Positions 18,917 to 42,363 of a DNA stretch of 49,700 bases are shown here, piece after piece. The position numbers were made by a program, and so were the translations under genes. The notes beneath the pieces are model-generated. The model did not search any database. It had not been told where the DNA came from and was given only the letters and a program-made list of their open reading frames with translations. The stretch is taken from positions 1 to 49,700 of the forward strand of contig CANFOW010000010.1 in assembly GCA_947448865.1 (NCBI GenBank), in the 5' to 3' direction. Origin of the DNA: Actinomycetota bacterium (GTDB lineage: Bacteria; Actinomycetota; Actinomycetes; S36-B12; UBA5976). Each line of letters starts with the position of its first letter. The first letter of the stretch is position 1.

Positions 18917-18962
18917 ATTCACTGTTAGCCTTGCTTCAAGTTGTTTGAGGAGTCTTTTTAAC

Positions 18963-21587: not shown

Positions 21588-21614
21588 AGGGTTTTTAACC
21601 GTTATTTGACTGAA

Positions 21615-21657
21615 TCAGGGCAGTTGCTGCACTAGGCACAACTGCCCTGAGCTTTTT
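21615..21657 (+). terminator. Intrinsic terminator of the EXORDIUM-like gene
   Basis: A perfect 12-bp stem, TCAGGGCAGTTG (21615-21626) with CAACTGCCCTGA (21639-21650), is followed by GCTTTTTG. It begins 28 bp after the stop codon. Confidence 0.9.
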
Positions 21658-21838
21658 GTGGGGAAAACCCCATAACTTTGATTTGTAAGGGTTTTAGAGT
21701 CTCGAGAGCCAAAATTCGTCCAAGAAACCGCCAAAACCGATGTACCATTAAAAGGCAACGCCCTGAAATGCCTGCTTAACCAAGTTGCGCTATTGGGCGT
21801 ATCGGCGTGTTTTGGCGTGTGATTTGGGGGAACACCAA

Positions 21839-24800
21839 ATGAACATGAAAAAACTAACTGGTACGGAAAGCGTAGTTACCAGAAAGTTTCTTGTCGCGAC
21901 CGAGCGTCAAGATTTATCGAAAGAGATCACTGTGCAGATGTCCCGCATAATTAATTCAAGCGACTCACGAGGCAAGTCACGCTTTGTTGTTGTTGTCGGT
22001 GTTGTACTAGCGATGTTCGCTGGTCAACTTGAGTTTGCGGGAGCTGCACAAGCTGACCCGACGCCACCAGCATATGTAGTAACCACTTGTTTGGACACTG
22101 TTGCTGATGACTCCGTGCTTTCACTTCGTGAAGCAGTTGCCGAAGCAAACCTTGCGGGATTGGTTAATCAAGCAATCACGTTCGATCCGACAATTGCATG
22201 TAACGGTGACGCAGATCCAGCTGCCAATGAAGGACATCCATTGGTACTCGGTTCAACAATTGAAGTCACAGCAAACGGACTCACAATCGATGGTCTCGGT
22301 CAGACCTCGGGTGACGGTGCACACTTCATCAACGTGATTACTCGCGGTTACAGCAACGAGACGAGTTCCACAGACGAATCCAACTGGTATGTGGATGCAA
22401 ACAATTCGATTTTGTACCAAGAGGTTTACTACGAAGGCCCACTGTTTTACATCAACGGTCCTGATACCGACTTCGCCATCAACATCACTGGTTTGAAGAT
22501 CGACGGTAATGGCGACAACTACATGGGTCGTGCAATTGATGTTGCGCCTCAGGCTGCACCAGGCACCATGCTAGTTAACGTCACAGATTCCTCAATTGTG
22601 AACAACCGTTTAGGTTCAGCAGACAGCTGTACAGCTGTTGATCCAAACGTGACACCACCTACGATCCCAGACTTCAATGGCAGCGAAAGCGAACATCCTT
22701 ACAGCACCATTTGTGTGACCTACGTTGACGGTGATCGCTTGCATGCAAGCGGTGCTGCGATTTTGGCGCAAGGCGCAGGTTCTTCCGTACACATCACAAA
22801 CTCGAATGTGTCTGACAACTTCGCTAAGGGTGTTGGCGGAGCTATTGTCGCTGATCGCGTAGAAGTAACAAACTCAGACATCAACCGGAATACGGCGTAC
22901 TCAAACCCGAATCAAGCAATTGTTCGAGGCGGCGGAGCAATCCTTGCTCTCAATGAAGTAACTGTTTCAGGTTCAACTTTCAAGAACAACAAGATTGTCG
23001 ACGGCTACGGCGGCGCAATTGCAGTCGCAGGAAAGTTCAGCATTTCGAATGATTCACTGTTCCAGAACAACGCAGCGAATCCAGCGACAGACCCAGCATC
23101 GGAACTAAACCACGACTTAGCTCCACAGAGCCTGCGCGTTGGTTTCGGTGGCGCTGTCTCATCAAATATCTTTGCTGCCGTAAACGGCTGGACCCGATTT
23201 GATGGCGAGCATTTGCCAACTGACGATGCGCTGACATCGGATGACTCCAATGCTGAGATCTGGTTAACAGATCCCGATGGTGACATGCGTGGTGGAAAGC
23301 CATTCATCGACCCAGACTTGCTGGCTGCTAATGACACGATCGACAACTCGACCTTTGATTCAAATGCCGCAACCAATGGTGATGGTGGCGCAGTATTCGG
23401 CGATGGCAATCTCGACATCACAACTTCTGATGCGCCAACAACATCCTTCACAACTAACCAGGCTCCTAACGGCAATGGTGGAGCTGTCGCTGTCCGCTCG
23501 GCTTTGACCGTTTCTGATACGCGCTTTGAATCGAACACCGCAAGTGGTGACGATGTTGAACATGGTGCCGGTGGCGCAATCCATGGCTCAGGCTCGACGA
23601 GCATCACGCGTTCGTCTTTCCTTTCTAACATTTCGTACCTTGATGGTGGCGCTGTTTACACAACATTCACCGCACCATTGACGGTTTCGCAGTCACAGTT
23701 CAACAGCAACCGTTCGAACTTGAACGGTGGTGCAATCTCCGCAAACGACTCGTTGACACTCGAAAAGTCAACTTTCGATCAGAACGTTGCATCTAACAAC
23801 GGTGGCGCACTTGCGGTTTACTCATTCGCAAACGCAATTAACAACACCTTCTACAAGAACTCTGCCGGTGCAAGCGAAGCAACTGGTAACGGTGGCGCGG
23901 TTTACATCTGGAACGAAGGTTCCGTGGCGGAAGGTGCAACTGTAGGTAATGCAGGTTCACACTTCGTTAACAACACATTCCGTGGCAATACTGCATTAGC
24001 TTCTGCAGGTGATTCGATTTACAGCGCTGGAGATACGGATCACATTGGCGCCAAAGTTCTCATCGCGATTGCAAATATCTTTGCTGCAGATTCTGATGAT
24101 GCTGGTGACTCTGCACGTGTTCAGTGTGTATCGACCTCTAACAACGGCTGGAGTGCATACACTGACTGGCAGTTCAACATCGCAACAGATAATTCCTGTG
24201 GCGCTGCTGCAGCAACTATCGGATCAGACCCAGGTCCAGCTTCACCTTCGTACTTGTCGACGAACGTTGTTGACACTGTTGCGAACCTGGTGCTGTTCCC
24301 AATTGACCTCAACAATTCACAACCAACTAACAATGGTTATGCAACAACGATTGCGTTAGGAATCAGCTCAAGCGCCGTAAACGTTTTCTTCAAGTCTGAA
24401 GACGCAACTTACTCGCCGAACTCACTTCCATGGGTCCAGACAAGTGAAACATTCACTCCGGAAGATCGTGACGCATTCGTACCGACAGTGGACCAACGCG
24501 ACACTGACGCAAGTGCAGTAAGTCGCGATAGCAACCTAGCTGGTCCAATCAACACTGGCCAGATTGGTTCTCCTTACAACACGAAGCCACAGCACGACGT
24601 CGGTGCTTACGAATTCACTTCCGGTGTACCTAAGGCTGAGACCAACGAGGCAACTCTGGTTCGTAACACGACCGCAACCCTCAATGGCGTGGTAGATCCA
24701 TACCGTTTGATTTCCAGTGATGCATCGTTCTACTACACCAAGGTCAAGCCTTCTGATTCGGATCTTGCGAATCGTTGTACTGATTCGTTAATTGCTGACT

Positions 24801-28735: not shown

Positions 28736-29812
28736 TTACGAATTCAGAGCAGTGATTGCGTCGGATTCGATCACTCGTAGACCGAGCTGTACTAGGGCCC
28801 GAGTTGCTTGGCCCATTGACTCCACATCGTCACTTGCTTCACCGAGTTGTTGGCCAGCAAGTGCACGTTTGCGTATCGACTCCATAATCACGGCAAGTTT
28901 GAAGCATGCCAAAGCAACACAAGTATCTAAATGGTCAAGTGAAAAGCCTGTCGCTTTTTGATACTGCGCCACGATATCGCTGCGACTCCAAAATCCGGGA
29001 GTATCCGTGACGTATTGAGCCACGGGAATGAGCGCACGTAAAGTATCGGTCGGTTGTGACCAATAAACCAACGAAATTGCTAAATCTGAAATGGGATCAC
29101 CGAGTGTGGCCATCTCCCAATCAAGAACAGCATTGATGTGAAAAGTGTCTGGTGCGACGATGACGTTGTCAATCCGGAAGTCACCGTGCACGATGCTTGT
29201 TGGTAGTGATTCCGGAAGTCGCGAGATTGATTGCGTCAACCACGCATGTAGGTCGGCGATGTCAGGTAGTTCGCGAGTCTTGGTAATTTCCCACTGTTCG
29301 CCCCAGCGTCGTGCCTGTCGAGCAAGGTAACCAGCAGGTTTTCCGATGCCACTCAAACCAGCGCTTTCAGGAGAAACTGAATGAAGCCGGCTTAACGTGT
29401 CTACAAGATTGCGAGACAGAATGTCTGCATGTTCTGGTGAAAGTAGTTGCGATTCAGAAGCATTGCTGATCACAACACCGTCAACAAATTCCATCAAGAC
29501 GAACGAGGCTCCGATGACTTCGATGTCCTCACAGAGTGCGATCACCTGTGGTGTTGGAAACCCGACTTGATTCATGCCGGCTAGCAATTGAAACTCACGT
29601 TTCATGTCGTGCGCACTGGGCATCAGGTTGCCAAGAGGCGGACGCCGCAAAACATACTTGATTCCTGATACATCGCTCAGTGTGTAGCTGACATTACTTC
29701 GGCCACCAGCCAGAAGTTCTGCCTTCAAAGGCGCATGCAGGTCCATGGCAGGAACATGAGTCGAAAACCAAGACTCAAGTTGAGCCATCCGTAAACCTGC
29801 GGGGTCGGTCAA
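28736..29812 (-). CDS. APH-like kinase, LvaA / ACAD10-11 kinase-domain type
   Basis: A 358-residue aminoglycoside-phosphotransferase-fold kinase. TTG 29812 is chosen because it forms a TTGA overlap with the acyl-CoA dehydrogenase stop and sits 7 bp after AGGAG; ATG 29788 is the alternative. Kinase motifs are YVLRRPP near 53-60, the catalytic loop HGDFRIDN at 209-216 and the metal-binding DWEMATLGDP at 231-240. This kinase paired with an acyl-CoA dehydrogenase parallels the fused human ACAD10/ACAD11 and the LvaA-LvaC pair of the Pseudomonas levulinate pathway, in which a 4-hydroxyacyl-CoA is phosphorylated and then rearranged. The same reaction here is inferred from the pairing; the acyl chain length is unknown. 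Confidence 0.82.
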   Translation of the reverse strand: MTDPAGLRMAQLESWFSTHVPAMDLHAPLKAELLAGGRSNVSYTLSDVSGIKYVLRRPPLGNLMPSAHDMKREFQLLAGMNQVGFPTPQVIALCEDIEVIGASFVLMEFVDGVVISNASESQLLSPEHADILSRNLVDTLSRLHSVSPESAGLSGIGKPAGYLARQARRWGEQWEITKTRELPDIADLHAWLTQSISRLPESLPTSIVHGDFRIDNVIVAPDTFHINAVLDWEMATLGDPISDLAISLVYWSQPTDTLRALIPVAQYVTDTPGFWSRSDIVAQYQKATGFSLDHLDTCVALACFKLAVIMESIRKRALAGQQLGEASDDVESMGQATRALVQLGLRVIESDAITALNS

Positions 29813-30996
29813 GACCAATCTCCTGGGAGTAATCCAGCTTCACTTTGGCGGGTGGCGCGTTTGGCTATCGACCAACGATGAACCTCGGATGGCCCATCGT
29901 AAATCCGAAATGGGCGAACATCACGGAAAATTTGAGCGATGGGCAGATCACCAGAAATCCCTGAGGCACCGCACAATTGCATGGAACGGTCAACTATGCG
30001 ATTGGTAGCTTCGGCGACAAACGTTTTAGCAATTGAGGTTTCCTTGCGTGCTGGCGAACCTGCGTCTAATGCCTGGGCGGCTGTGCGAATAAGCGCACGG
30101 CTTGCGGCTATGTCGATCTCGTTATCAGCAATCATCAACTGGGCCATTCCAAGCGATGACAACGTTGTACCGAACATGGGTCGCTGGGCGGCGTAGGCAA
30201 CAGCCACTTCGTGCGTGCGACGCGCGGCGCCTAGCCAGCGCATACAGTGCGTTAGTCGAGCAGGACCTAGACGCACTTGTGCGTACTGAAAACCCTCGTT
30301 GACCTTACCGAGCACAGCGTCATCGCTCACGAAACAGTCCTGGAAGGAAATCACACCATGGCCGCCTGAAAACGCACTGTCGATTGTGTCAAGCGTGCGC
30401 TCAATTGTCATGCCTGGATTTTCAGAATCGACAAGAAACATCGTTGCCTTATCGCCGGTACGCGCCATGGCAATTGAAAACGAAGCGCCATCTGCGCCGG
30501 TGATGAACCATTTGGTTCCATTGATCCTCCAACCGCCATCAACCTTTGTTGCTGTTGTGGTGAGTTGGTCAGGATCAGCACCTGCACCCGGTGAAGGTTC
30601 CGTCATTGTGAATGTGGAACGAATTTCACCACGGCTAAGCGGACCAAGATATTTCTCGCGCTGTTCAGGAGTTGTTACTTTGTCTAAAAGCAGAATGTTT
30701 CCTTCATCAGGTGCCGCACAATTAAGTGCAGTTGGACCAAGAAGACTGCGACCGCTCTCTTCGAGAATGACGGATTGCGCGAAATGTGACAACGCCATGC
30801 CACCAAACTCTTTGGGTGCAGTTGGCGCAAAAACTTGTGCCGTGCGCGCAAGCGATTGCAATTCAACGCGCAATGCAGGAGCAATGCCGTGTTGCTCGGG
30901 ACGAAGAAGATGCTCTCGAGGAATCACGTGTGTGTTAACGAAGTCACGAACTTTCAACGCAATTTCTTTAAGCTCGTCATCAATTATGTGAGTCAT
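29809..30996 (-). CDS. Acyl-CoA dehydrogenase, LvaC / ACAD10-11 type
   Basis: A 395-residue flavoprotein starting at ATG 30996 behind AAGAGGCG. It contains FTMTEPSPGAGADP near 130, WRINGTKWFITGADGASF near 155, the AAQRPMFGTTLSSLG block near 270 and C-terminal DVRPFRIYDGPSEVHRWSIAKR. In ordinary acyl-CoA dehydrogenases the catalytic base is Glu in a YEG motif; here the position is Asp (Asp367), giving DGPSEVH, close to the DGPDEVH of ACAD10/11-type enzymes. It is translationally coupled to the kinase and should act on its phosphorylated product, eliminating phosphate to yield a 2-enoyl-CoA. A GntR gene is divergent, with a palindrome between them. Confidence 0.88.
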   Translation of the reverse strand: MTHIIDDELKEIALKVRDFVNTHVIPREHLLRPEQHGIAPALRVELQSLARTAQVFAPTAPKEFGGMALSHFAQSVILEESGRSLLGPTALNCAAPDEGNILLLDKVTTPEQREKYLGPLSRGEIRSTFTMTEPSPGAGADPDQLTTTATKVDGGWRINGTKWFITGADGASFSIAMARTGDKATMFLVDSENPGMTIERTLDTIDSAFSGGHGVISFQDCFVSDDAVLGKVNEGFQYAQVRLGPARLTHCMRWLGAARRTHEVAVAYAAQRPMFGTTLSSLGMAQLMIADNEIDIAASRALIRTAAQALDAGSPARKETSIAKTFVAEATNRIVDRSMQLCGASGISGDLPIAQIFRDVRPFRIYDGPSEVHRWSIAKRATRQSEAGLLPGDWS

Positions 30997-31021: not shown

Positions 31022-31044
31022 GAGCATAGCAGGGTGCTATGCTC
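31022..31044. promoter_or_regulatory. Palindromic operator between the acyl-CoA dehydrogenase and gntR genes
   Basis: GAGCATAGCA (31022-31031) and TGCTATGCTC (31035-31044) form a perfect 10-bp inverted repeat around GGG. It lies 25 bp from the acyl-CoA dehydrogenase start and 45 bp from the regulator start, so one bound GntR dimer could control both directions. The T-run needed for a terminator is absent on either exit side. Confidence 0.7.
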
Positions 31045-31089: not shown

Positions 31090-31731
31090 ATGACGTCCTC
31101 CAACGGGTCGCTCACCATTGACACATTCAATCGTTTACGTCTGGACATTATTCAAGGAACTATTCGTCCTAATGAGCGCCTCATTGCAGCAGACCTCGCG
31201 GCGGCGCTAAATATTTCCCGCACACCGATTCGTGAGGCGCTTCAATTACTTGAATCAGAAGATTTAGTTGTTGCAGTAAAACGTGGATACGTCGTTCGAG
31301 AACATTCTCGAGCTGACATTCAGGAAATTTATGAAGTGCGTGCCGCACTAGAAGGCATGGCCGCTCGCTTGGTTGCAGAGCAAAAAGGCTTGGCCGCTGT
31401 GAAAACAATTGAAGCGGTAGGTGCTCATAAAGATCAACTGGGAACCACAAAGGATCGCTCAAAAGTAGTTGACTTGAATAATGCATTCCACTCTGCGATT
31501 TTCGTGGCGTGTGGCAATCAGCGTCTAGAGCGAATTAATCGAAGCAATAGTCAACACTTCTTCAACTATCGGATTGCGGAGCTGTATACCAACGAAGAGC
31601 AACTCGCATCCATTCGCGAGCATGCTCGTATTGTAAAAGCCATCCGAGCACACGATGGTGATGCAGCCGAAACTGCGGCTCGTGAGCATGTACTGAATGG
31701 ACTTCGAGTCACACTCAGCAAATTGCGTTAG
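31090..31731 (+). CDS. GntR family transcriptional regulator (FadR/FCD subfamily)
   Basis: A 213-residue DNA-binding protein. Residues 8-70 form the winged helix, with the signature LAAALNISRTPIREALQLLESEDLV at about 37-61. Residues 75-205 form an all-helical FCD ligand domain (EIYEVRAALEGMAARLVAEQ, NNAFHSAIFVACGN, HARIVKAIRAHDGDAAETAAREHV) with the His/Asp positions that bind a metal and carboxylate ligand in this family. ATG 31090 is chosen; an upstream TTG at 31060 is in frame, and the ribosome site is loose (AGAAAGGTTGG). It is divergent from the acyl-CoA dehydrogenase-kinase pair and probably represses it until an acyl or hydroxyacid ligand binds. Confidence 0.88.
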   Translation: MTSSNGSLTIDTFNRLRLDIIQGTIRPNERLIAADLAAALNISRTPIREALQLLESEDLVVAVKRGYVVREHSRADIQEIYEVRAALEGMAARLVAEQKGLAAVKTIEAVGAHKDQLGTTKDRSKVVDLNNAFHSAIFVACGNQRLERINRSNSQHFFNYRIAELYTNEEQLASIREHARIVKAIRAHDGDAAETAAREHVLNGLRVTLSKLR

Positions 31732-31745
31732 CTCGCTATTGAGTT

Positions 31746-32507
31746 TTAAGTATTGCCATTTATGGTGATACCACCATCGACTAATAATGTTTGGCCAGTC
31801 ACATAGCTTGCTGCTGGGCTCGCAAGGAAAAACACGACCTGCGCAATTTCGCGAGGTTCAGCAAGTCGGCCAAGGCCAATCCGTGAATTGAGAAAGGCCT
31901 CGTCAATGCGCCCTTGCTTGATTCCGCCATCAACCATCTCAGTGCGAGTCCATCCAGGTGCCACATTGTTCACTCGAATGTTTCGCGGCGCCCACTCCAA
32001 TGCGAGTGTTCGGGTAAAACCTTCCAGGCCCGCTTTTGCAGATGTGTAACCAGTACGCCCTGCAATTCCAACGGAACCAGCGATTGATCCCACATTGACG
32101 ACTGAGGCGTCATCGGCTTTTCCGAGCAAGGCGCTAGCGGCGCGACAGACTTTGAATGCGCCGGACAAGTCAGTGTCAATCACTCGAAGCCATTCTTCGT
32201 CACTTACCTCTTCAATGGGCTTGCGAATAATGATTCCTGCGCAGTTCACCACTGAAGTTAAAGATCCAAAGTTTTCCTCAATGTCGACAAATGCTGCGCT
32301 AACAGATTCTGTATCTGTCACATCCATGACTACGCCGCTCACACGAACGTGTGGGTAGAGCGCCGTGAGCGATGCAACGGTTGAGTCAATTGCCGAAGCA
32401 TCGCGCCCCGACACGATGACATTCCAGTTGTTGCGCGCGAACTCGTCACTGATGGCTTGGCCAATTCCTTTGGCGCCACCTGTGACAAGAACGGTAGGAA
32501 GACTCAC
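31746..32507 (-). CDS. Short-chain dehydrogenase/reductase
   Basis: A 253-residue classical SDR. The cofactor site TGGAKGIGQAI is at residues 9-19, NCAG near 88 and the catalytic Ser-Tyr-Lys set is in NVGSIAGSVGIAGRTGYTSAKAG near 137-160. The C-terminal VTGQTLLVDGG is typical of 3-oxoacyl or polyol/hydroxyacid dehydrogenases. It begins at GTG 32507, overlapping the DadA stop (GTGA), and is the last gene of a racemase-RidA-DadA-SDR operon. It may oxidise or reduce a hydroxyacid or oxoacid intermediate of that pathway; the substrate is not readable from the sequence. It converges on gntR with 14 bp between. Confidence 0.87.
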   Translation of the reverse strand: MSLPTVLVTGGAKGIGQAISDEFARNNWNVIVSGRDASAIDSTVASLTALYPHVRVSGVVMDVTDTESVSAAFVDIEENFGSLTSVVNCAGIIIRKPIEEVSDEEWLRVIDTDLSGAFKVCRAASALLGKADDASVVNVGSIAGSVGIAGRTGYTSAKAGLEGFTRTLALEWAPRNIRVNNVAPGWTRTEMVDGGIKQGRIDEAFLNSRIGLGRLAEPREIAQVVFFLASPAASYVTGQTLLVDGGITINGNT

Positions 32508-33763
32508 TTACGAATCGACCGAACCTTAAACGGCTCAGTGGATACTTCTGGTGTGCGTCCCGCAATGATGTCTGCAAGCATTGCGCTGGAACCGCTGGCC
32601 ATGGTCCAACCCATGTGCCCATGGCCGGTGTTGTAATAAAGATTGTCGTGCTTCGGGCCTTTACCAATAATCGGAGGACCATCTGGTGTCATAGGGCGAA
32701 GACCCGCAGTCATGCGCGCTGTGTCCCAATCAGCGGCGTCTGGCCAGAGTTCACGAGCGGTATTCAAAATATTGTCGAAGTCGCTTGGCTTATGCGATTT
32801 GTCGTAACCGCTAAATTGTGCAGTTGACGAGATACGAAGTTTGTCGCCCATGGGTGACCATGCAACGAGTGTTTTTTCATCAACACCACCAAGGGTTGGA
32901 GCTGCTGCTTTGTTTGTGATGTCGATTGTTACTGAGAATCCCTTTGCTGGGTATACAGGAATGTCTTGACCAACACTTCGCGACAAGAATGGGCTTCCGA
33001 CGCCGAGCGCAAGGACATAGTTATCAGCTGTCATGGTTCCGTGATCGGTAACTAGTCCTGTGATGTGGCCATCTTTTTGCAAGAACTTTTCAGCAGTAAT
33101 TCCAAATTTGAATTCCACACCAAGTTCTTTGCATCTCGCCATCAAGTTACGACTGTACTTTTCAGAATTTCCACTTGCGTCATTGGGAGCGTGAATGGCG
33201 CCAACGATTGTGTCACCTGCTCCGGCAAATGCTGGATCAATACGCGCGAGTTCCTCGATACTAAGTCGTTCTAGTTTTTGACCATGTGATGTGAGAAGTT
33301 CCATCTTCATCAAGCCAAGCTCTAGTTCGGCTTCGTCGCGATACAAGTAAACAAGTCCTTGGTTTACTCCGTCGTATTCAATGCCTTCTGTTGTTGCGAT
33401 CTCGACAAGTTTGCGTTGGCTGTATTCCGAAAGTTCGAGCTTGGCGAGCGTGTTGATGCGAGCGCGACTTGAGGTGCATTCACGCAAAAATTGCAGACCC
33501 CACCACAGGAATCGCGGACTCAAAGTCGGCTTAACCCGGATAGACGTCTTTTCACCAAAAAGCGACTTGATCAGCATTTTTGGAGCAGCCGGAGAAGCCC
33601 ACGCAAAGCAGTGAGCTGGGGCAATGAGACCAGCGTTTACTGCAGTTGCTTCTTGGCCAACAGTGTCCTGTCGGTCAATTACGGTGACTTCATGACCATC
33701 TTTGGCCAAGTAGTACGCGGTCGTCACGCCGACGATCCCGCCGCCTAGCACGATTGTGCGCAT
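32504..33763 (-). CDS. dadA: D-amino acid dehydrogenase, DadA family
   Basis: A 419-residue flavoprotein that oxidises D-amino acids to imino acids and passes electrons to the respiratory chain. The FAD fold IVLGGGIVGVTTAYYLAKDG starts at residue 4, followed by EATAVNAGLIAPAHCFAWASP (about 39-59), the DadA-specific segment, and C-terminal YYNTGHGHMGWTMASGS near 383. Length fits DadA (about 410-435). ATG 33763 follows CAGGAGAATCCC. RidA lies immediately upstream, which suits an imine-producing enzyme. D-hydroxyproline dehydrogenases belong to the same family and are an alternative, especially as a proline-racemase-family enzyme is encoded 8 kb away. Confidence 0.88.
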   Translation of the reverse strand: MRTIVLGGGIVGVTTAYYLAKDGHEVTVIDRQDTVGQEATAVNAGLIAPAHCFAWASPAAPKMLIKSLFGEKTSIRVKPTLSPRFLWWGLQFLRECTSSRARINTLAKLELSEYSQRKLVEIATTEGIEYDGVNQGLVYLYRDEAELELGLMKMELLTSHGQKLERLSIEELARIDPAFAGAGDTIVGAIHAPNDASGNSEKYSRNLMARCKELGVEFKFGITAEKFLQKDGHITGLVTDHGTMTADNYVLALGVGSPFLSRSVGQDIPVYPAKGFSVTIDITNKAAAPTLGGVDEKTLVAWSPMGDKLRISSTAQFSGYDKSHKPSDFDNILNTARELWPDAADWDTARMTAGLRPMTPDGPPIIGKGPKHDNLYYNTGHGHMGWTMASGSSAMLADIIAGRTPEVSTEPFKVRSIRK

Positions 33764-33789: not shown

Positions 33790-34179
33790 TTACTGGGGCA
33801 GTGCCGCGATAGCGGTGATTTCAACAACAAGGCCGTCAATCAGCAATCCGCACACAAGCGTGGCGCGAGCTGGACGATGGTTTGTGAAGATTTCAGCCCA
33901 AGCCTTGTTGTAGTGAGGCAAATGAGCGAGGTCTGTGATGTAAACAGTTGCTTGCGCGATGTCATCAAGAGTTGCGCCTTTTTCGGCGAGGATTGTTGCT
34001 ACCCGACCAAGTGTGTATTTGGTTTGTTCGTATGGGTCACCAGGGAATACAACATTTGCTTCTGGGTCGAGAGCAACTTGGCCTGCGACGAAAATAAGGC
34101 CATTTGCTACAGCTGCATTTGAATACGGCATGATTGCTGGACCTAATGACGGTGGGTTGTATGTTTCGACGTTACTCAT
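33790..34179 (-). CDS. ridA: RidA family imine/enamine deaminase
   Basis: A 129-residue YjgF/YER057c/UK114 protein that speeds hydrolysis of reactive 2-imino acids to 2-oxo acids. It contains SLGPAIMPYSNAAVANGLIFVAGQVALDP (about 12-40), QTKYTLGRVATILAEKGATLDDI and HRPARATLVCGLLI near 101-114, where Arg104 or Arg105 is the carboxylate-binding residue of active members. It lies between the racemase and DadA genes with short gaps, so it probably clears the imine released by DadA. The usual trimeric, cytoplasmic form is expected. Confidence 0.92.
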   Translation of the reverse strand: MSNVETYNPPSLGPAIMPYSNAAVANGLIFVAGQVALDPEANVVFPGDPYEQTKYTLGRVATILAEKGATLDDIAQATVYITDLAHLPHYNKAWAEIFTNHRPARATLVCGLLIDGLVVEITAIAALPQ

Positions 34180-34187
34180 GTTTTCTC

Positions 34188-34922
34188 CTAGACGATTCCG
34201 TTGTAGTTGTGTGGAACTGTTGCGTGATAGACGTAATTAATAAAGTTCGCCCAGTCGAACACGGGTAAACCAGTGGCCTCGTGAATTGCTTTGCTATACG
34301 GCGGCAAGTCACTACATTCGAGCATAAACGCACCGATTTGTGGATGTGCACGAACTAGGTCTTGCGCTGCAGTGACTACTTCGCTACGCATGTGGTCTTC
34401 GTCAAGCGTGCCGAGTTCCTTGAGAATGACGTCATTGAAGTGTGGGTAATTCTCCATGCCTTGAACCCGAAGCCGTGACGTATCGTGCACGCCTACAGTT
34501 GCGAATTCTTTGTCGCCAAGACCCGCAGAGTTAGCGGTCAAGATTCCCAGTTGTTTGTCTGGGCCAATCATTTGAAGCAACATAGGAAGCTGAACCAGGC
34601 TGGTCAAGAAAACCGGAATGTCAACGGCAGCTGCAACCCGATCTTGGAATGCGAGCATGAAACCACAGTTTCCTGTGATGGCACGCACTCCTTCGCTTTC
34701 GAGCTTCTTGGCTGCGTTGATCATGAGTTCGGCGAATGAATCACCGGATCCACGTAATACATCTGCGCCGCTAGCGCCGGGAACGGTTTCGTAGCGCACG
34801 GGGAAGTTAAACGTGTTGGCGTTATTTAAGTCGCCGGGAACGAATGGAATGTTCCATTCTGCACACAGCATGCCGATTGCATAGCCGTATGCGACTTGTC
34901 CTTGTCGAGCGTGGTAAATCAT
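34188..34922 (-). CDS. Aspartate/glutamate/hydantoin racemase family protein
   Basis: A 244-residue two-cysteine racemase-fold protein. The frame is open to 35123, but ATG 34922 (MIYHARQGQVAYGYAIG) is preferred since GAGGG lies 6 bp before it and family homology begins there. Cys86 in TGNCGFM and Cys203 in LECSDLPPYS are the paired acid/base residues of cofactor-independent racemases. The family includes Asp/Glu racemases, hydantoin racemase and maleate isomerase, so the substrate is open. It is the first gene of the RidA-DadA-SDR operon, which suggests it makes the D-enantiomer that DadA oxidises. A mirror-image motif pair controls this and the divergent 2-oxoacid dehydrogenase operon. Confidence 0.8.
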   Translation of the reverse strand: MIYHARQGQVAYGYAIGMLCAEWNIPFVPGDLNNANTFNFPVRYETVPGASGADVLRGSGDSFAELMINAAKKLESEGVRAITGNCGFMLAFQDRVAAAVDIPVFLTSLVQLPMLLQMIGPDKQLGILTANSAGLGDKEFATVGVHDTSRLRVQGMENYPHFNDVILKELGTLDEDHMRSEVVTAAQDLVRAHPQIGAFMLECSDLPPYSKAIHEATGLPVFDWANFINYVYHATVPHNYNGIV

Positions 34923-34938: not shown

Positions 34939-34958
34939 TGCATACATCTTTGCATGCA
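34939..34958. promoter_or_regulatory. 8-4-8 operator motif, racemase side
   Basis: TGCATACA-TCTT-TGCATGCA on the plus strand lies 17 bp before the racemase start codon. It is the mirror image of the element at 35059-35078 on the other side of the same divergent promoter region. Confidence 0.65.
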
Positions 34959-35041
34959 GTAATGGCTTTTTCTCTGCGTTTCCAAAACCAGACCATGTGG
35001 CAAAGGTCGCAGAAAATAAGGATTTTTCTGGTCTAAGTGTG

Positions 35042-35071
35042 TTGTCAAGCAGGTGGATTGCATGCAATAGT
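35042..35071 (+). promoter_or_regulatory. Promoter of the 2-oxoacid dehydrogenase operon, leaderless
   Basis: TTGTCA (35042-35047, five of six consensus positions) is followed by an 18-bp spacer and AATAGT (35066-35071), with the ATG at 35078. No ribosome site lies close to the ATG, so transcription probably starts at the start codon. Confidence 0.5.
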
Positions 35072-35078
35072 GCATACA
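35059..35078. promoter_or_regulatory. 8-4-8 operator motif, dehydrogenase side
   Basis: TGCATGCA-ATAG-TGCATACA overlaps the -10 box and its last base is the A of the E1alpha ATG. A protein bound here would block both polymerase and the start point. It is the inverted partner of 34939-34958. Confidence 0.7.
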
Positions 35079-36157
35079 TGAGCGATTATCGGTTCGTCCC
35101 GAGCGACGAGCCCGTCGCGCCATTTAACCTGTTGGCTCAAGACGGCACACTTCATGGACAACCATCCATGACTGATGCGCAAGTATTTGATGCGTTGCGT
35201 TATATGGTCCTCACCCGCACCTTTGACGAAAAAGCAACAGCGCTTCAGCGTCAAGGTCGATTTGGAACCTTTTCGTCAGTTCGAGGTCAAGAAGCATCAG
35301 TTGTTGGATCATCGTTTGCGCTTGATCCGAGTAAGGACTGGATTGCTCCGCAATATCGCGAACTTCCAGCGCTGCTTCGCCACGGATACCCGCTAGAAAA
35401 CTTTGCGCTGTACTTCATGGGAAATCCTCGAGGCGGTTCCATTCCAGAGGGAGTGAATCTACTTCCGCTACAAATTTCATTAGCGGCCCAAATTCCGCAA
35501 GCAACAGGTGTGGCATGGGGACTCAAACTTCAAGGCTCTGATGGAGTCGCACTGACTTACTTCGGTGACGGTGCGTCGTCCGAAGGTGACTTCCACGAAA
35601 GCCTAAATCTCGCGGGTGTTGTGAAAGCGCCAGTGATTTTCTTTTTGCAAAACAACGGTTGGGCAATTTCTACTCCGCGTGCAATCCAAACTGCAGCTAG
35701 AAGCTTTGCTGAACGAGCACTTGGATACGGAATTGATGGCGTAGTCGTTGATGGAAATGATTTGCTTGCCGTTTATGAAGTAACTGCAGCCGCTGTTGCT
35801 AAAGCTCGCGCGGGAGGCGGAGCAACACTTATTGAGTCGGTTACTTATCGCACAGGTGCACACAACACAGCCGATGATCCTTCGCGCTACATCGACAATG
35901 ACGAATTAGCTGCCTGGGTAGCAAAAGATCCAATTGAGCGTGTTGAAAACTACCTGCGCAAAAAAGGTGTCTGGAGTGATTCCGATGCGCAGCAACTTCG
36001 CGAGGAATGCGCACAGGAAGTTGATCGTGCGGTAACGGCTGCCCGAGCAATTCCACTTCCGACCAGTGACGCATTATTTGATCACGTGTACGCCGACCCA
36101 CCTGCATTAATTCAACAACAACGACAAACGTGGAAGAAAAGAGAGGCGCAGTCATGA
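35078..36157 (+). CDS. 2-oxoacid dehydrogenase E1 component, alpha subunit
   Basis: A 359-residue thiamine-diphosphate subunit of a heterotetrameric E1. ATG 35078 (MSDYRFVPSDEP) is chosen; the frame is open to 34844 but runs through the promoter region. The thiamine-pyrophosphate motif is GDGASSEGDFHESLNLAGVVKAPVIFFLQNN (about 164-194), and RGQEASVVGSSFAL and YRELPALLRHG match the PdhA/BkdA group. Residues such as IPEGVN-LP-QI are very close to Bacillus PdhA. Both pyruvate and branched-chain 2-oxo acids are possible substrates; actinobacteria usually use homodimeric AceE for pyruvate, so a branched-chain or specialised oxo acid is favoured by inference. It is the first gene of a tightly overlapping four-gene operon. 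Confidence 0.9.
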   Translation: MSDYRFVPSDEPVAPFNLLAQDGTLHGQPSMTDAQVFDALRYMVLTRTFDEKATALQRQGRFGTFSSVRGQEASVVGSSFALDPSKDWIAPQYRELPALLRHGYPLENFALYFMGNPRGGSIPEGVNLLPLQISLAAQIPQATGVAWGLKLQGSDGVALTYFGDGASSEGDFHESLNLAGVVKAPVIFFLQNNGWAISTPRAIQTAARSFAERALGYGIDGVVVDGNDLLAVYEVTAAAVAKARAGGGATLIESVTYRTGAHNTADDPSRYIDNDELAAWVAKDPIERVENYLRKKGVWSDSDAQQLREECAQEVDRAVTAARAIPLPTSDALFDHVYADPPALIQQQRQTWKKREAQS

Positions 36158-37137
36158 GTGACAAGACCATGATTGAAGCCATTCGTGAATGTCTTCGCCA
36201 AGAAATGGAAGCCGATTCTCGAGTCGTTGTGATTGGTGAAGATGTTGGCCGGCTTGGCGGCGTTTTCCGCGCTACGGATGGACTGCAAGCACAGTTTGGC
36301 AAAAATCGCGTTGTAGACATGCCGCTTGCAGAAGGCGTGATTATTGGCTCTGGAATTGGGTTGGCGATGAGCGGGTTGCGACCTGTTATTGAATTGCAGT
36401 TCCTCGGCTTTGGTCATCAAGCGTTTCATCAACTCGGACAGCAAGTCGCACGATTGCGCTTTCGTTCCCAAGGTCGCCACAGTTTGCCGCTGGTGATTCG
36501 TTCCCCGTATGGCGGTGGCGTTCGCACACCCGAGTTGCACTCGGATGCGTTTGAAGCTTTTTACACACATACCCCTGGCCTCAAAGTTGTTGCCCCAGCT
36601 TCAGCACATGATGCGAAAGGCATGCTCGCCGAAGCAATCGCAAGCGATGATCCTGTGTTGTTCCTTGAGCCACTCAAGGGCTACCGTCTGGTCAAAGATG
36701 ACGTTCCGGACGAACGTTTCCGCACACCGCTTGGAAAGTTACGGGTCATGCGCGAAGGCACCGATGTCACATTGATTGCGTGGTCAGCAGCATCAGTCAT
36801 GGTTAATCAGGCTGCCGAAATTCTTGCAGAACGCGGTATCAGTGCCGAGGTACTCGATTTACGCAGTCTCAATCCACTCGATGTTGACGGCATTACCGCA
36901 TCAGTTGAAAAAACTGGCCGTGCTGCTGTTATTCAGGAAGCATCCTTTACGGGTGGTTTCGCGAGCGAAATCATTGCCACAGTCCAAGAACACTGTTTCT
37001 ATAACTTGCAGGCACCAATCTTGCGTATTACTGCGCCTGATACTCCCTACCCACTGGGTGCGGTCGAAGATCTTTATGTTCCAGATATTGATCGTGTGGT
37101 CAACGAAGTAACTGCACTAGTGCAGGAATCCGCGTGA
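36154..37137 (+). CDS. 2-oxoacid dehydrogenase E1 component, beta subunit
   Basis: A 327-residue transketolase-type subunit that pairs with E1alpha to decarboxylate 2-oxo acids. ATG 36154 overlaps the alpha stop by 4 bp (ATGA) behind GAGAGGCGCAG. Characteristic blocks are VVVIGEDVGRLGGVFRATDGL (about 26-46), DMPLAEGVIIGSGIGLAMSGLRPVIELQF (about 57-85), PYGGGVRTPELHSDAFEAFYTHTPGLKVVAP (about 118-148) and the C-terminal TGGFASEIIATVQE. Length is that of PdhB/BkdB (about 325). The neighbouring E2 and E3 genes make a complete complex. Confidence 0.93.
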   Translation: MSDKTMIEAIRECLRQEMEADSRVVVIGEDVGRLGGVFRATDGLQAQFGKNRVVDMPLAEGVIIGSGIGLAMSGLRPVIELQFLGFGHQAFHQLGQQVARLRFRSQGRHSLPLVIRSPYGGGVRTPELHSDAFEAFYTHTPGLKVVAPASAHDAKGMLAEAIASDDPVLFLEPLKGYRLVKDDVPDERFRTPLGKLRVMREGTDVTLIAWSAASVMVNQAAEILAERGISAEVLDLRSLNPLDVDGITASVEKTGRAAVIQEASFTGGFASEIIATVQEHCFYNLQAPILRITAPDTPYPLGAVEDLYVPDIDRVVNEVTALVQESA

Positions 37138-38378
37138 GCACATTCAAGTTTGAACTCCCCGATGTCGGCGAAGGCATTGCCGAAGCGGAAATTATCGAGT
37201 GGCTTGTTGCAGTCGGTGACGTGGTTCGCGTGGACCAAGTCATCGCCGTTATTGAAACAGACAAATCACAAATCGAGATGCCTACTCCAGTTGCAGGCAC
37301 TGTCACTTACTTAAATGGCAAACCAGGTGATGTGCTCAAAGTCGGTTCTGTGCTGGTGGAAATCAGCGGCGACGCAACCGCGCCAAGTGGACAGGGATCG
37401 AGTCACACAGAGCACGCAAACAGTTCGGGCACATCAACAGCGGCTTCGCAAGCAAGCTCGGGAACATCGGCAACTTCAGGAACAGTGGCTTCAGAAAACT
37501 CAGCGGGGCGCGCATTAGCCAGCCCGAGTACCCGCAAGTTGGCTGCGTCTCTAGGGGTCAATCTTGAAGCTGTTATTGCCACCGGACCTAGCGGACGGGT
37601 GACCGATGACGATGTTCGACGAGCAGCCTCAGGAACGCAAGAAGCAACGGACCCTTCAACACCTACTGCACATTCACCACAAGCAAGCCGACCAGGAGTA
37701 ACAGTCGTTCCTCTCACCGGCTTGCGTCGCAGCATCGCCGCTTCCATGACAAACGCGCTTTCGATTCCGCACATTCTTGAATTCAAAGAAATTGATGCCA
37801 CTGCATTGTTGGAGTTACGCGATTCCATTAATGCTGGAGGTGGCGAGAAAATTTCTGTTACGCCACTTTTGATGAAGGCATGCATTATTGCACTTGCGCA
37901 ACACCCAACTCTGAATGCGCGCTTTGATGCACAAAGCAACGAAGTATCTCAATACGAAGCCATTCATTTGGGAATCGCAACGGCAACTGATGATGGATTG
38001 ATTGTTCCCGTAATACATGACAGCCAAGCGCTCGACATTAAGCAACTTGCCAGCGAGCTTGATCGACTTGCCGATTTAGCACGCACTCGAACTGCAACGT
38101 CAGAGCAACTCAACGGTGGAACTTTTTCGATCACTAACTTTGGTTCATTCGGTACATGGTTAGGCACTCCAGTAATTCGACCTCCAGAAGTTGCTATTGC
38201 TGGCTTCGGGCGCATTGCTGACAAAGTGATTGCCGAAAACGGATTACCCGTTGTGAGAAAAGTTTTACCAATCGTTGTTGCGGTCGATCATAGAATTAAC
38301 GATGGTGCACATTTGGGTGCCTTCACGGCAACACTTGCAGAGTTGCTGACCCATCCTCAACAGTTAGCGAGCTCATAG
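37134..38378 (+). CDS. Dihydrolipoamide acyltransferase E2 component
   Basis: A 414-residue three-domain E2. The N-terminal lipoyl domain has the modified lysine Lys44 in ETDKSQIEMP. A Ser/Thr/Ala/Gly-rich linker (about 85-123) is followed by the E3-binding domain ASPSTRKLAASLGV...GPSGRVTDDDV (about 124-158). The C-terminal acyltransferase domain (about 185-410) ends with the active-site DHRINDGA near 386, where the usual DHRxxDG His and Asp are present. One lipoyl domain is typical of BkdC/PdhC in Gram-positives. GTG 37134 overlaps the E1beta stop (GTGA). It transfers the acyl group from E1 to CoA. Confidence 0.93.
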   Translation: MSTFKFELPDVGEGIAEAEIIEWLVAVGDVVRVDQVIAVIETDKSQIEMPTPVAGTVTYLNGKPGDVLKVGSVLVEISGDATAPSGQGSSHTEHANSSGTSTAASQASSGTSATSGTVASENSAGRALASPSTRKLAASLGVNLEAVIATGPSGRVTDDDVRRAASGTQEATDPSTPTAHSPQASRPGVTVVPLTGLRRSIAASMTNALSIPHILEFKEIDATALLELRDSINAGGGEKISVTPLLMKACIIALAQHPTLNARFDAQSNEVSQYEAIHLGIATATDDGLIVPVIHDSQALDIKQLASELDRLADLARTRTATSEQLNGGTFSITNFGSFGTWLGTPVIRPPEVAIAGFGRIADKVIAENGLPVVRKVLPIVVAVDHRINDGAHLGAFTATLAELLTHPQQLASS

Positions 38379-39808
38379 TGGTTGTCGGCGAACTTCCCGA
38401 TCAAGTTGATTTTCTCGTGGTCGGCGGTGGGCCGGGTGGCTATGTGGCTGCGCTTGTTGCCGCTCAATTGGGACGAAAAGTCGTAGTCGTTGACGTACTT
38501 GGCGAAGCAGGACTCGGTGGAGTTTGCGTCAACGTCGGTTGCATTCCGTCTAAAGCGCTTATTGAATTAGCGCACGAAAATTACGAGCGGGCATCGTGGG
38601 CATGTCGTGGCCTGCCAGGCTCGGAGTCTGGACAAGTAAACATGGCTGACTTCCAAGTCTGGAAGGAGCAAGTTACTTCAGGGCTCAACGGTGGGATTCA
38701 GCAACTGTTCCGCACAGCTGGAATTGAAGTGCGACAAGGCTTCTTTAGATTCACGCGCAAAGACCAAGGCGCTGTTGATTATGGCGACGAGCGTCCACCG
38801 ATGCACATCAAATTCAAGTCATGCATCGTGGCAACGGGATCTCGCCCGACACACATACCCACGTTGAAACATGACGGGATTCGCATAGTTGATTCAACAG
38901 ATGTGCTCGCATTACATGAAGTGCCACAACGTGTTGCTGTAGTTGGTGGCGGATATATCGGAATTGAACTTGGAACTGCACTTGCCAAAGTTGGCTCGCA
39001 CGTCACGATTGTGGAGGCGCTGCCTCGTATTTTGGCGGCAATGCCAAGTCACATCGTGTCGCCGGTTGCTAAGCGTCTGAACGAAATTGGTGTGACGGTA
39101 CTGACGGACACTGTGGTCACCCACGATGACGGTAAGCAATTACATATCCAGAAAGGTGACGAGGTCAGTGCATTAGATGTCGACCTTGTAGTAGTTGCTG
39201 TTGGACGTACTCCAAACACTCATGATCTCGGACTTGAAGTTCTTGGTGTTCAACCTAATTCACGTGGCTTGCTCGAAGTTGGTCCCGACTTACTGATCGC
39301 ACCGAACATTGCCGCTATCGGAGACATTGTTCCTGGGCCAGCGCTTGCGCACAAAGCAAGTGCAGAAGCTCATGTTGCCGCAGAAGTACTGTGCGGGCAT
39401 GCCGAAACATTTGCTCCCGTTGCCATCCCAGCCGTTGTATTTAGTGATCCCGAAATCGCAACAACAGGAATGACTGTCGATGACGCAAAGGCCGCAGGCC
39501 TTGATGCTTCAGCAGCAATGTTCCCGATGGCCGCTTCGGGTCGGGCACGTACTCTCGATGAATCCGCCGGATTAGTTCAAATTGTTCATACACCTGATGG
39601 CGTGATTCTTGGTGCCCAAGCAGTTGGTCCACATGTATCTGAACTGATCGGTGAACTTACTTTCGCTATCGAGATGGGCGCGAATGTCGCTGATTTAGCT
39701 GGCACTATTCATCCGCATCCGACTGTGAGCGAAACATGGGTTGAAGCTGCGCGAGTTGCTATGGGTATGCCAATTCACGTGTCGCCAAAGCGCCCTCGCA
39801 AGGTTTAA
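38378..39808 (+). CDS. lpd: Dihydrolipoyl dehydrogenase E3 component
   Basis: A 476-residue FAD enzyme that reoxidises the lipoyl group of E2 and makes NADH. The FAD motif VVGGGPGGYVAAL is near 14-26, and the redox-active disulfide Cys50/Cys55 lies in GGVCVNVGCIPSKAL. The NAD domain starts at VVGGGYIGIELGTALA (about 187), and the C-terminal catalytic pair is in HPHPTVSETWVEAA near 448-461. It starts at GTG 38378, sharing one base with the E2 stop. Family members usually have GGTCLN at the first site; VCV is a conservative variation. The gene ends 14 bp from the converging SDR. Confidence 0.94.
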   Translation: MVVGELPDQVDFLVVGGGPGGYVAALVAAQLGRKVVVVDVLGEAGLGGVCVNVGCIPSKALIELAHENYERASWACRGLPGSESGQVNMADFQVWKEQVTSGLNGGIQQLFRTAGIEVRQGFFRFTRKDQGAVDYGDERPPMHIKFKSCIVATGSRPTHIPTLKHDGIRIVDSTDVLALHEVPQRVAVVGGGYIGIELGTALAKVGSHVTIVEALPRILAAMPSHIVSPVAKRLNEIGVTVLTDTVVTHDDGKQLHIQKGDEVSALDVDLVVVAVGRTPNTHDLGLEVLGVQPNSRGLLEVGPDLLIAPNIAAIGDIVPGPALAHKASAEAHVAAEVLCGHAETFAPVAIPAVVFSDPEIATTGMTVDDAKAAGLDASAAMFPMAASGRARTLDESAGLVQIVHTPDGVILGAQAVGPHVSELIGELTFAIEMGANVADLAGTIHPHPTVSETWVEAARVAMGMPIHVSPKRPRKV

Positions 39809-40705: not shown

Positions 40706-41767
40706 TTATTGAGGAGCCCAAATATCGGTCAACGTATAGCCCTGGGGGAATGGATCTGTTGAATCCAGCTTCCACGTGGCAACGCCTGTGACCCAGCCTT
40801 GCCCTGTGATCTCAGGCAAAATCGCCTGGTACTCACCAATCGTGGTCTCGCCAAGAACGCGGCCAATGAATTGGCTTCCGATGATGCTTTCATGGATGAA
40901 CTCTTGGCCAATCTCAAGCAAGCCGCGTGCATGCAACCCTGCTAGTCGGGCACATGTTCCAGTACCGCATGGAGAACGATCGAGTACACCTGACCACGTG
41001 CTGGGGTCATCGCGACTGACTGGCCCTTGTGTCATCACCATGGTGTTACGTGATGCTTTACCAGGAGTCGGGTCTCCCGTGTGAAGAACGATGAGGTTGA
41101 CGTTCTTGATGTTTGGATTAAGTGGGTGTTGAACTTGGATCTGTTCATTGCAGGCGATTTTCAACAATGCGCCAGCGCGAGTCAGTTCTCGACCTTTATT
41201 GGGATCTATTTCAAGACCAAAATTGGCAACATTTGTTTGTGCAAAAAATTGACCGCCAAAAATAATGTCGGTCGGAATGATTCCGTACTCGGGTACATCA
41301 AGTGGGTAGTCCTTATGAACAACGAATGCCGGCACATTTTGAATTGTCACACCAGTGACTTTTCCGTTACTGCAATGAGCAGTTGTTGTGATTGTTCCAA
41401 CCGCTGTATCAATCTTCACAGTCGTTGTCGGTTCATGCATCGTGACGCGACCTGTTTCCAGCATTGCAGTCACGGAACAAATAGTGTTGCTACCTGACAT
41501 CGGCGTGAAGCCACCTTGTTCAAGCACGATAATCCCGAAATCAGAATCGGCATTTACGGCTGGGACGATAAACACAGCACAGAGTCCTGGATAACCACGT
41601 GGTTCGCGCAACACTAATCGACGAAGACCATCGAGTTCATTTCGGCAGTATTCAAACCGCTCTTCCATCGTGTCACCTTTAATGAGGTGTGCGAGGTTTG
41701 TGATGACACGCCCTGCTTCACCCGCAGCATGTACTTCGATGGTTTCGATATCAATTGTGTTTGTCAT
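40706..41767 (-). CDS. Proline racemase superfamily enzyme (hydroxyproline epimerase/dehydratase type)
   Basis: A 353-residue PLP-independent enzyme. ATG 41767 (MTNTIDIETIEVHAAGEAG) is chosen; 12 upstream codons overlap the neighbouring SDR. Family motifs are HAAGEAGRVI at the N-terminus, the first catalytic site PMSGSN, and the second, DRSPCGTGTCARLA. The first catalytic Cys is replaced by Ser91 while Cys267 is retained. Variants of this residue pair in the superfamily are tied to 4-hydroxyproline 2-epimerase or 3-hydroxyproline dehydratase/epimerase rather than plain proline racemase. The gene follows an SDR by 2 bp and lies near DadA, which could oxidise a D-hydroxyproline product. Substrate is uncertain. 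Confidence 0.85.
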   Translation of the reverse strand: MTNTIDIETIEVHAAGEAGRVITNLAHLIKGDTMEERFEYCRNELDGLRRLVLREPRGYPGLCAVFIVPAVNADSDFGIIVLEQGGFTPMSGSNTICSVTAMLETGRVTMHEPTTTVKIDTAVGTITTTAHCSNGKVTGVTIQNVPAFVVHKDYPLDVPEYGIIPTDIIFGGQFFAQTNVANFGLEIDPNKGRELTRAGALLKIACNEQIQVQHPLNPNIKNVNLIVLHTGDPTPGKASRNTMVMTQGPVSRDDPSTWSGVLDRSPCGTGTCARLAGLHARGLLEIGQEFIHESIIGSQFIGRVLGETTIGEYQAILPEITGQGWVTGVATWKLDSTDPFPQGYTLTDIWAPQ

Positions 41768-41769
41768 GG

Positions 41770-42363
41770 TTAACCTAATTCGTAGATTTGTCCGGTACTC
41801 CATCCTTCAACTGATTTCACATATGTGTTGGTCACTTCGGCCAAAGTCACATGTGTAAAACCAGGAAAGTATGGATGGTATCCCTCTGCTTCAGCTAAAA
41901 CGCTTGGGCTGACGGCATTTATGCGAATTCCTCGAGGCATTTCAATGGAAGCGCCAATAACAAATGATTCCAAAGCGCCATTAGCTAGTGCAGCCAGCGC
42001 ACCAGTCTTGATTGGTTCGCGAGCGAGTACACCAGTAGTGAGAGTGAAGGAACCTGAGTCATTGACGTAGTCCAGACCTTGATTCACGAGTTCGACCTGA
42101 CCCATCACTTTGTCCGTGATGCCCTTGAGGTAATCATCGCGAGTCAATTCGGCCAGTGGCTTGAAAGCGACTTTCCCAATACACGCAACAACTGCATCGA
42201 CTTTGCCCACTGACTTGTACATAGCGGCAATAGACGCTGGATCATTGACGTCTACGTTGACGTCGCTACTGCGACTTGCAGAAATCACTTCATGGTTTTT
42301 GCGCAATACATTTGCAACGCCACTACCAACCAGTCCGTTTGCACCAATTACGAGAATCTTCAT
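41770..42363 (-). CDS. Small short-chain dehydrogenase-like protein
   Basis: A 197-residue SDR-like protein that begins MKILVIGANGLVGSGVANVL, a G-x-x-G-x-x-G cofactor motif, and continues with ACIGKVAF in the NAG position, TTGVLAREP and PRGIRINAVSPSVL near the end. It lacks the classic Tyr-x-x-x-Lys: the segment after the TTG strand is GALAALANGALESF, as in other short SDRs whose catalytic Tyr is missing. It may therefore be a divergent reductase or a non-catalytic binding protein. It starts at ATG 42363 behind GAAGGACAGG and is coupled to the proline-racemase-family gene (2-bp gap). Confidence 0.75.
   Translation of the reverse strand: MKILVIGANGLVGSGVANVLRKNHEVISASRSSDVNVDVNDPASIAAMYKSVGKVDAVVACIGKVAFKPLAELTRDDYLKGITDKVMGQVELVNQGLDYVNDSGSFTLTTGVLAREPIKTGALAALANGALESFVIGASIEMPRGIRINAVSPSVLAEAEGYHPYFPGFTHVTLAEVTNTYVKSVEGWSTGQIYELG

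Follow-up and report, generated by a model that had tools for sequence, protein, structure and literature searches.

Two short repeated elements lie between divergently transcribed operons in an actinobacterial contig, and they raise the question of whether one protein uses them to control both operons and, if so, which protein this is. We analyzed the window, a stretch of 49,700 nucleotides carrying the locus, together with the remainder of its genome and the genomes of its relatives. The genes and sites concerned are the following.

31090..31731, plus strand: GntR/FCD regulator, candidate binder of the operators (Pfam GntR and FCD above cut-off; synteny; contact residues)
31746..32507, minus strand: short-chain dehydrogenase
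32504..33763, minus strand: D-amino acid dehydrogenase (NCBIfam NF001933 above cut-off)
33790..34179, minus strand: RidA-family protein (below curated cut-offs)
34188..34922, minus strand: Asp/Glu/hydantoin racemase-family protein (NCBIfam NF005679 above cut-off), first gene of the minus-strand operon
34939..34958, no strand: putative operator 1, racemase side (boxes 34939-34946 and 34951-34958; exact match; kept in 16/16 racemase genomes, three with one mismatch)
35042..35047, plus strand: predicted E1-alpha -35, TTGTCA (TTG kept at register in 15/15 genomes)
35059..35078, no strand: putative operator 2, E1-alpha side (boxes 35059-35066 and 35071-35078; exact match; full in 4/15 genomes with E1-alpha beside the racemase)
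35066..35071, plus strand: predicted E1-alpha -10, AATAGT (6 nt before the ATG; AA[TG]AGT in 15/15 genomes)
35078..36157, plus strand: 2-oxoacid dehydrogenase E1 alpha (TIGR03181 above cut-off)
36154..37137, plus strand: E1 beta
37134..38378, plus strand: E2 acyltransferase
38378..39808, plus strand: E3 dihydrolipoyl dehydrogenase (TIGR01350 above cut-off)

The D-amino acid dehydrogenase, the RidA-family protein and the 2-oxoacid dehydrogenase complex fit together, because the 2-oxoacid product of the D-amino acid dehydrogenase can serve as a substrate of the complex. Three further features of the surroundings were observed. At 28736-30996, an acyl-CoA dehydrogenase adjoins an APH-family kinase, a pairing that we take to belong to ACAD10/11-type hydroxyacid breakdown and that may hint at the pathway substrate. 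A protein of the proline racemase/trans-3-hydroxyproline dehydratase family, below all curated cut-offs listed, is encoded near the cluster at 40706-41803, and 18945-27574 is occupied by two large repetitive ORFs (880 and 1929 aa) whose starts make it likely that the products are secreted.

Two tandem elements in a divergent promoter region

The racemase-side element reads TGCATACA-TCTT-TGCATGCA and the E1-alpha-side element TGCATGCA-ATAG-TGCATACA. Their sequences and coordinates were confirmed, and both fit the pattern TGYATRCA-N4-TGYATRCA, that is, two 8-bp palindromes with centres 12 bp apart, the element starts being separated by 120 bp. The initial annotation had described 8-4-8 motifs with palindromic or nearly palindromic half-sites at both promoters, and this description holds, since every half is a near-palindrome. 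It had also presented the two elements as mirror images of each other. The reverse complement of the first indeed agrees with the second at 15/20 bases, but a direct copy agrees at 14/20, and in relatives the variable base of a half shifts between positions, so that the relative orientation carries little information and was rejected as a meaningful feature.

The pattern is rare in the window's genome (1.75 Mb in 105 contigs, 88% complete). With 153,759 bases of this genome as the training set, Markov models of orders 1 to 4 predict 0.018 (order-1) to 0.005 (order-4) exact sites in the 1.749 Mb used, and four were found, two of them the present elements, along with one further site carrying a single mismatch. 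Spacers of 3 or 5 bp gave no match at up to one mismatch in the spacer control scan; at the same threshold a backward control pattern had none in the window's genome, and 3 of the 23 same-genus genomes have one. When three mismatches are allowed, a looser version of the pattern yields 48 matches vs 14-16 for its control, and such weak matches are therefore uninformative. The elements are thus not due to chance, and the motif is rare in the genome; frequent occurrence at random positions was what the initial annotation had named as telling against its proposal.

Both elements lie in a defined register to predicted promoters. On the racemase side, the predicted promoter is TTGAC[TG]-17-AAGAAT, and the element begins 6-7 nt past the -10 in 15 of 16 genomes, so it would cover approximately +1 to +20. 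The window's own genome is the single exception, with -35 and -10 hexamers that are unrecognizable at the conserved register. Between the element and the start codon of the racemase gene lie 15 to 35 nt, depending on the genome, and 16 bp in the window (ATG at 34922-34920, minus strand). On the E1-alpha side, TTGTCA-18-AATAGT (35042-35071) is the region's only sigma70-like match. An arrangement of a TTG-starting -35, 18 bp, AA[TG]AGT, 6 nt and the ATG recurs in all 15 genomes that have E1-alpha beside the racemase, and the E1-alpha transcript is probably leaderless. The boxes of the second element flank this predicted -10 in the window and in three relatives (G008, G002 and G022), and the last base of the element is the A of the E1-alpha ATG (35078), as the initial annotation had noted when it placed the element over the -10 and the first base of the start codon.

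Conservation in the genus and further candidate sites

We searched for the racemase in 60 genomes, including that of the window, of which 23 belong to the same genus and 37 lie outside it. It is present in 16, all within the genus (16/23), and every one of these carries the element upstream of the gene, in 13 cases exactly and in three (G006, G010, G013) with one mismatch. Six of the seven same-genus genomes without the racemase have no match, and the seventh (G020) has a one-mismatch match within a coding frame. Over the 16 aligned regions, the mean column conservation is 0.95 in the half-sites, 0.62 in the 4-bp spacer and 0.49 in the remainder.

The E1-alpha side behaves differently. A full element stands there in only 4 of the 15 genomes with both operons adjacent, namely those of the window, G008, G002 and G022; in the remaining 11 the racemase site is the only full one, and E1-alpha shows no more than a decayed half-site, such as TGCATTCA in G004 and G013. 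The expectation that both sites are conserved in relatives keeping both operons is therefore borne out for the racemase site, which fails in none, and not for the E1-alpha site, which fails in 11/15. In one genome (G017; assembly 91% complete), the E1 operon is absent from the assembly while the racemase, the GntR gene and the site are retained, indicating that the site goes with the racemase and GntR rather than with E1. The region thus offers a compact case for comparison: most species have a single operator between the divergent promoters and a few have two. The genus, one of the Actinomycetota, is represented here by draft genomes only.

The other sites in the window's genome mark tentative further targets. 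An exact site (C3:37567) lies upstream of an AA_permease gene; at the corresponding place in four close orthologs (79-81%), it has two mismatches in G008 and G022 and three in G003, and is lost in G002. G003 is without racemase and GntR ortholog, and G002 has GntR. Another exact site (C39:1768) has a pyrroline-5-carboxylate-reductase-like gene on one side and a DUF998 gene on the other, and the three closest orthologs (68-73%) lack it; the one-mismatch site (C13:33101; L055 9102-9121) lies in the gap of a divergent gene pair. Away from the racemase, the same-genus relatives hold six one-mismatch matches, four within coding frames and two intergenic, the latter beside an ornithine cyclodeaminase-family gene (G001) and before an EamA transporter gene (G008). 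Among the 37 genomes outside the genus, when one mismatch is allowed, three contain matches; these amount to four loci, one of them exact (G036), and all four sit within open frames. As a separate observation, three TGTATGTA-like boxes with 12-bp spacing occur near the start of a small HTH-regulator-like protein at L054 3618-3649 (G000:C2). Overall, the analysis defines a concrete putative operator together with a candidate for its regulator, and a small set of candidate targets: the racemase/D-amino acid dehydrogenase operon, the 2-oxoacid dehydrogenase operon and perhaps the amino acid permease gene.

A GntR/FCD protein as the candidate regulator

Contrary to the initial annotation, which saw no regulator gene next to the elements, the cluster itself contains a GntR/FCD gene, at a distance of 3.2 kb. 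Its product (31090-31731) matches PF00392 (GntR) from residue 14 with 51.6 bits (cut-off 27) and PF07729 (FCD) with 94 bits (cut-off 24.3). The gene is found in the cluster in every relative whose contig extends far enough, and beside the acyl-CoA dehydrogenase gene wherever the contig has both. In G004 and G007 no GntR ortholog was seen, and their contigs stop before its place; in G022 it is split between contig ends, in G018 it lies on a second contig that also bears the racemase end, and G021, which has no racemase match, carries a fragment at a contig end. Co-occurrence alone lends weak support to a functional link, because genes of one cluster co-occur anyway.

More specific indications come from the protein itself. 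The 12 orthologs are 63-76% identical to it. R30, S43, R44, T45, R48 and G66, the counterparts of DNA-contact residues of Atu1419, show no variation across the 13 aligned proteins. Its best solved-structure relatives by sequence are 7xp0 and 6z74, the latter of which we take to be Atu1419 of Agrobacterium fabrum (phmmer E 9e-19 for the Atu1419 match), with residue numbers in agreement with the alignment. By this alignment, S43, R44, T45 and R48 correspond to Ser44, Arg45, Thr46 and Arg49, the recognition-helix DNA contacts of Atu1419; its Glu34, whose contact is through the main chain, is Ala33 here. Matched by eye, the metal ligands Asn137, His141, His192 and His214 correspond to N130, H134, H178 and H200, also invariant in the 13 proteins.

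The letters of the boxes can be compared with these contacts. The Atu1419 operator is given as ATGTATACAT; in the crystals with DNA, Arg45 contacts base G3 and Thr46 base A5, T4 has a phosphate contact only, and binding is lost on changing G3 and its partner C8 (PMC7797058). Among 64 symmetrised half-sites of the genus, each half having been taken on both strands, G2 and A4 are invariant (64/64 each) and position 3 is C in 47, T in 15 and A in two. The invariant bases would thus be those that Atu1419 contacts, and the variable base its phosphate-only position. The spacing within the box, GY-AT-RC, is 2, compared with GT/AC boxes 2-3 nt apart in the family, the T of GT being T in 15/64 and C in 47/64.

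Relatives outside the genus prefer the same core. Of 80 loci kept, we retained 77 and excluded three from the same genus, found in the Actinomycetota MAGs UFOp-RE-4nov15-112 and UFOp-RH-26jul17-237 and in TrE-25oct19-270; the highest identity outside the genus was 39%. MAGs of the UFOp kind presumably come from fresh water, and the MAG of isolate TrE-25oct19-270 is titled Bifidobacterium breve, a name that looks wrong (L168; same gene at 67% identity). When the 256 palindromic 8-mers were counted near the gene vs elsewhere in the same loci, TGTATACA was the most enriched (18 vs 1.17 expected, z 13.9; runner-up z 2.9). The class TGYATRCA occurred 24 times vs 2.58 expected, in 18/77 loci, and most of the loci are therefore without such a box in the counted stretch. 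Position 3 is mostly C in the genus vs T in the relatives' boxes. None of the 24 boxes has a second box at 12 bp, and the tight tandem is, in this sample, particular to the window's genus. Upstream of its GntR match, a Leucobacter MAG (L215) has a TGCATGCA box at 153 bp and a TGTATGCA box at 33 bp, exactly 120 bp apart like the elements here, which may be a coincidence.

Taken together, the evidence makes it very likely that the elements are tandem operators of the GntR/FCD protein, which would repress both operons and be released by an inducer. The proposal of the initial annotation that the operators of one regulator stand at both promoters, in positions suited to repression, is supported, and so are their rarity in the genome and the retention of the racemase site. 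On the whole the initial interpretation is partly borne out, its main point included. We infer that each TGYATRCA box is a short palindrome read by one GntR/FCD dimer; a 20-bp element should then accommodate a pair of dimers 12 bp apart. As long as no inducer is bound, the protein would form a roadblock at the transcript start of the racemase operon, at about +1 to +20, and would lie across the -10 and the start of the E1-alpha operon, occluding the -10. As inducer, a pathway amino acid, imine or 2-oxoacid is probable; it would bind near the conserved metal site and free the DNA.

Several observations count against this assignment, among them the prevalence of C at position 3 where the relatives' boxes have T, the lack of a second box at 12 bp beside the relatives' genes, the unrecognizable racemase hexamers of the window and Ala33 in the place of Glu34. 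Autoregulation is common in the GntR family, and for this reason the lack of a site at the promoter of the gntR gene weakens the case: in the 11 of 16 loci that were readable, the region between gntR and the acyl-CoA dehydrogenase gene lacks an exact box, and its best tandem has five mismatches, so that no autoregulatory operator was found there. The same divergent region contains a perfect 10-3-10 inverted repeat at 31022-31044, GAGCATAGCA-GGG-TGCTATGCTC, whose arms, judged by eye, are not kept in relatives; only the -10-like TATRCT part is.

The missing site would be explained if the elements were real operators of another DNA-binding protein encoded elsewhere, a GntR/FCD paralog or a member of another family, each 20-bp element forming one pseudo-palindrome for one dimer. 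The genome does encode at least two more GntR/FCD-like proteins (C42 and C45; 29-31% identity), and further exact sites lie on other contigs. However, neither paralog contig has a tandem site at up to two mismatches, synteny and the family preference for the TGTATACA core both speak for the GntR of the cluster, and the invariant and variable positions follow the GntR/FCD contact pattern box by box. We therefore consider another regulator improbable. That the elements act as RNA, the two boxes pairing as an 8-bp hairpin in the racemase leader, is far less probable still: the racemase-side element of the window can pair over the whole 8 bp with one G-U, but, as judged by eye, mismatches would interrupt the hairpin in G004, G016, G010 and G013, whose boxes stay near DNA palindromes, and the predicted E1-alpha transcript starts only downstream of the E1-alpha element. 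Chance or a randomly scattered motif has a negligible probability, for although loose three-mismatch matches are common and all four loci outside the genus sit within open frames, the four exact sites far exceed expectation and the racemase site, conserved in all 16 racemase genomes, holds a fixed promoter register in 15 of them.

Within the preferred reading of tandem GntR/FCD operators, the constant distance between the elements hints at a further arrangement. The 120-bp start-to-start spacing is the same in all four double-site genomes, and the intervening 100 bp of the window is gapless and only 54-55% identical to those of G008, G002 and G022, while the elements agree at 18/20 and 19/20; both E1-alpha boxes are TGCATGCA in these three. 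Conceivably, tetramers of the tandem dimer pairs bridge the 120 bp and form a loop that shuts both promoters, the second anchor having been made in this lineage by converting the -10 region of a leaderless promoter into a full operator. We regard this as rather unlikely. If true, control of one operon became joint control of two, with sister species showing the decayed half-site.

Comparison with known systems

Among the papers listed in a literature search, no title or abstract beginning describes this operator or cluster, and TGTATACA together with GntR was found only in PMC7797058. The regulator of that study, Atu1419, a member of the VanR group of FCD in the GntR superfamily, is the closest parallel: it shares the domains and, by alignment, the contact residues and metal ligands, its 8-bp core is TGTATACA against TGYATRCA here, and its boxes also lie over -10 regions, with two sites within one divergent promoter region (PMC7797058). 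In contrast, its sites are single palindromes 190 bp apart rather than tandem pairs, it is a demonstrated tetramer able to loop DNA, it represses its own gene, whereas we find no such site at gntR here, and it belongs to a different pathway (PMC7797058).

Two other regulators resemble parts of the system. HypR of Streptomyces coelicolor, likewise a GntR/FCD repressor from an actinobacterium, controls an amino acid pathway in which a D-amino acid dehydrogenase takes part, and its site covers the -10 of its own promoter; it differs in its motif, CTNTGC(A/C)ATGTCAC, in being autoregulated and in its gene cluster (PMC6608401). With NanR of E. coli, several GntR/FCD dimers pack onto boxes that follow each other closely beyond the polymerase site, as is predicted here, but NanR reads GGTATA repeats and owes its cooperativity to an N-terminal extension of 32 residues (PMC8012715); in the present protein the match to GntR starts at residue 14.

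The wider frame is set by the FadR-subfamily divergons of Suvorova et al. (2015), in which single mid-region sites are distinguished from double operon-near sites, both forms occurring in this genus, and weaker extra boxes lie 7-12 nt from the site centre (PMC4494728). In the present genus the additional box forms a complete palindrome at a constant distance of 12 bp, with C predominating at position 3. GntR/FCD divergons are thus already known (PMC4494728), and the present locus is a new and fairly ordinary instance of them; its least usual feature is the tight 12-bp tandem, joined in a few species by a second operator.
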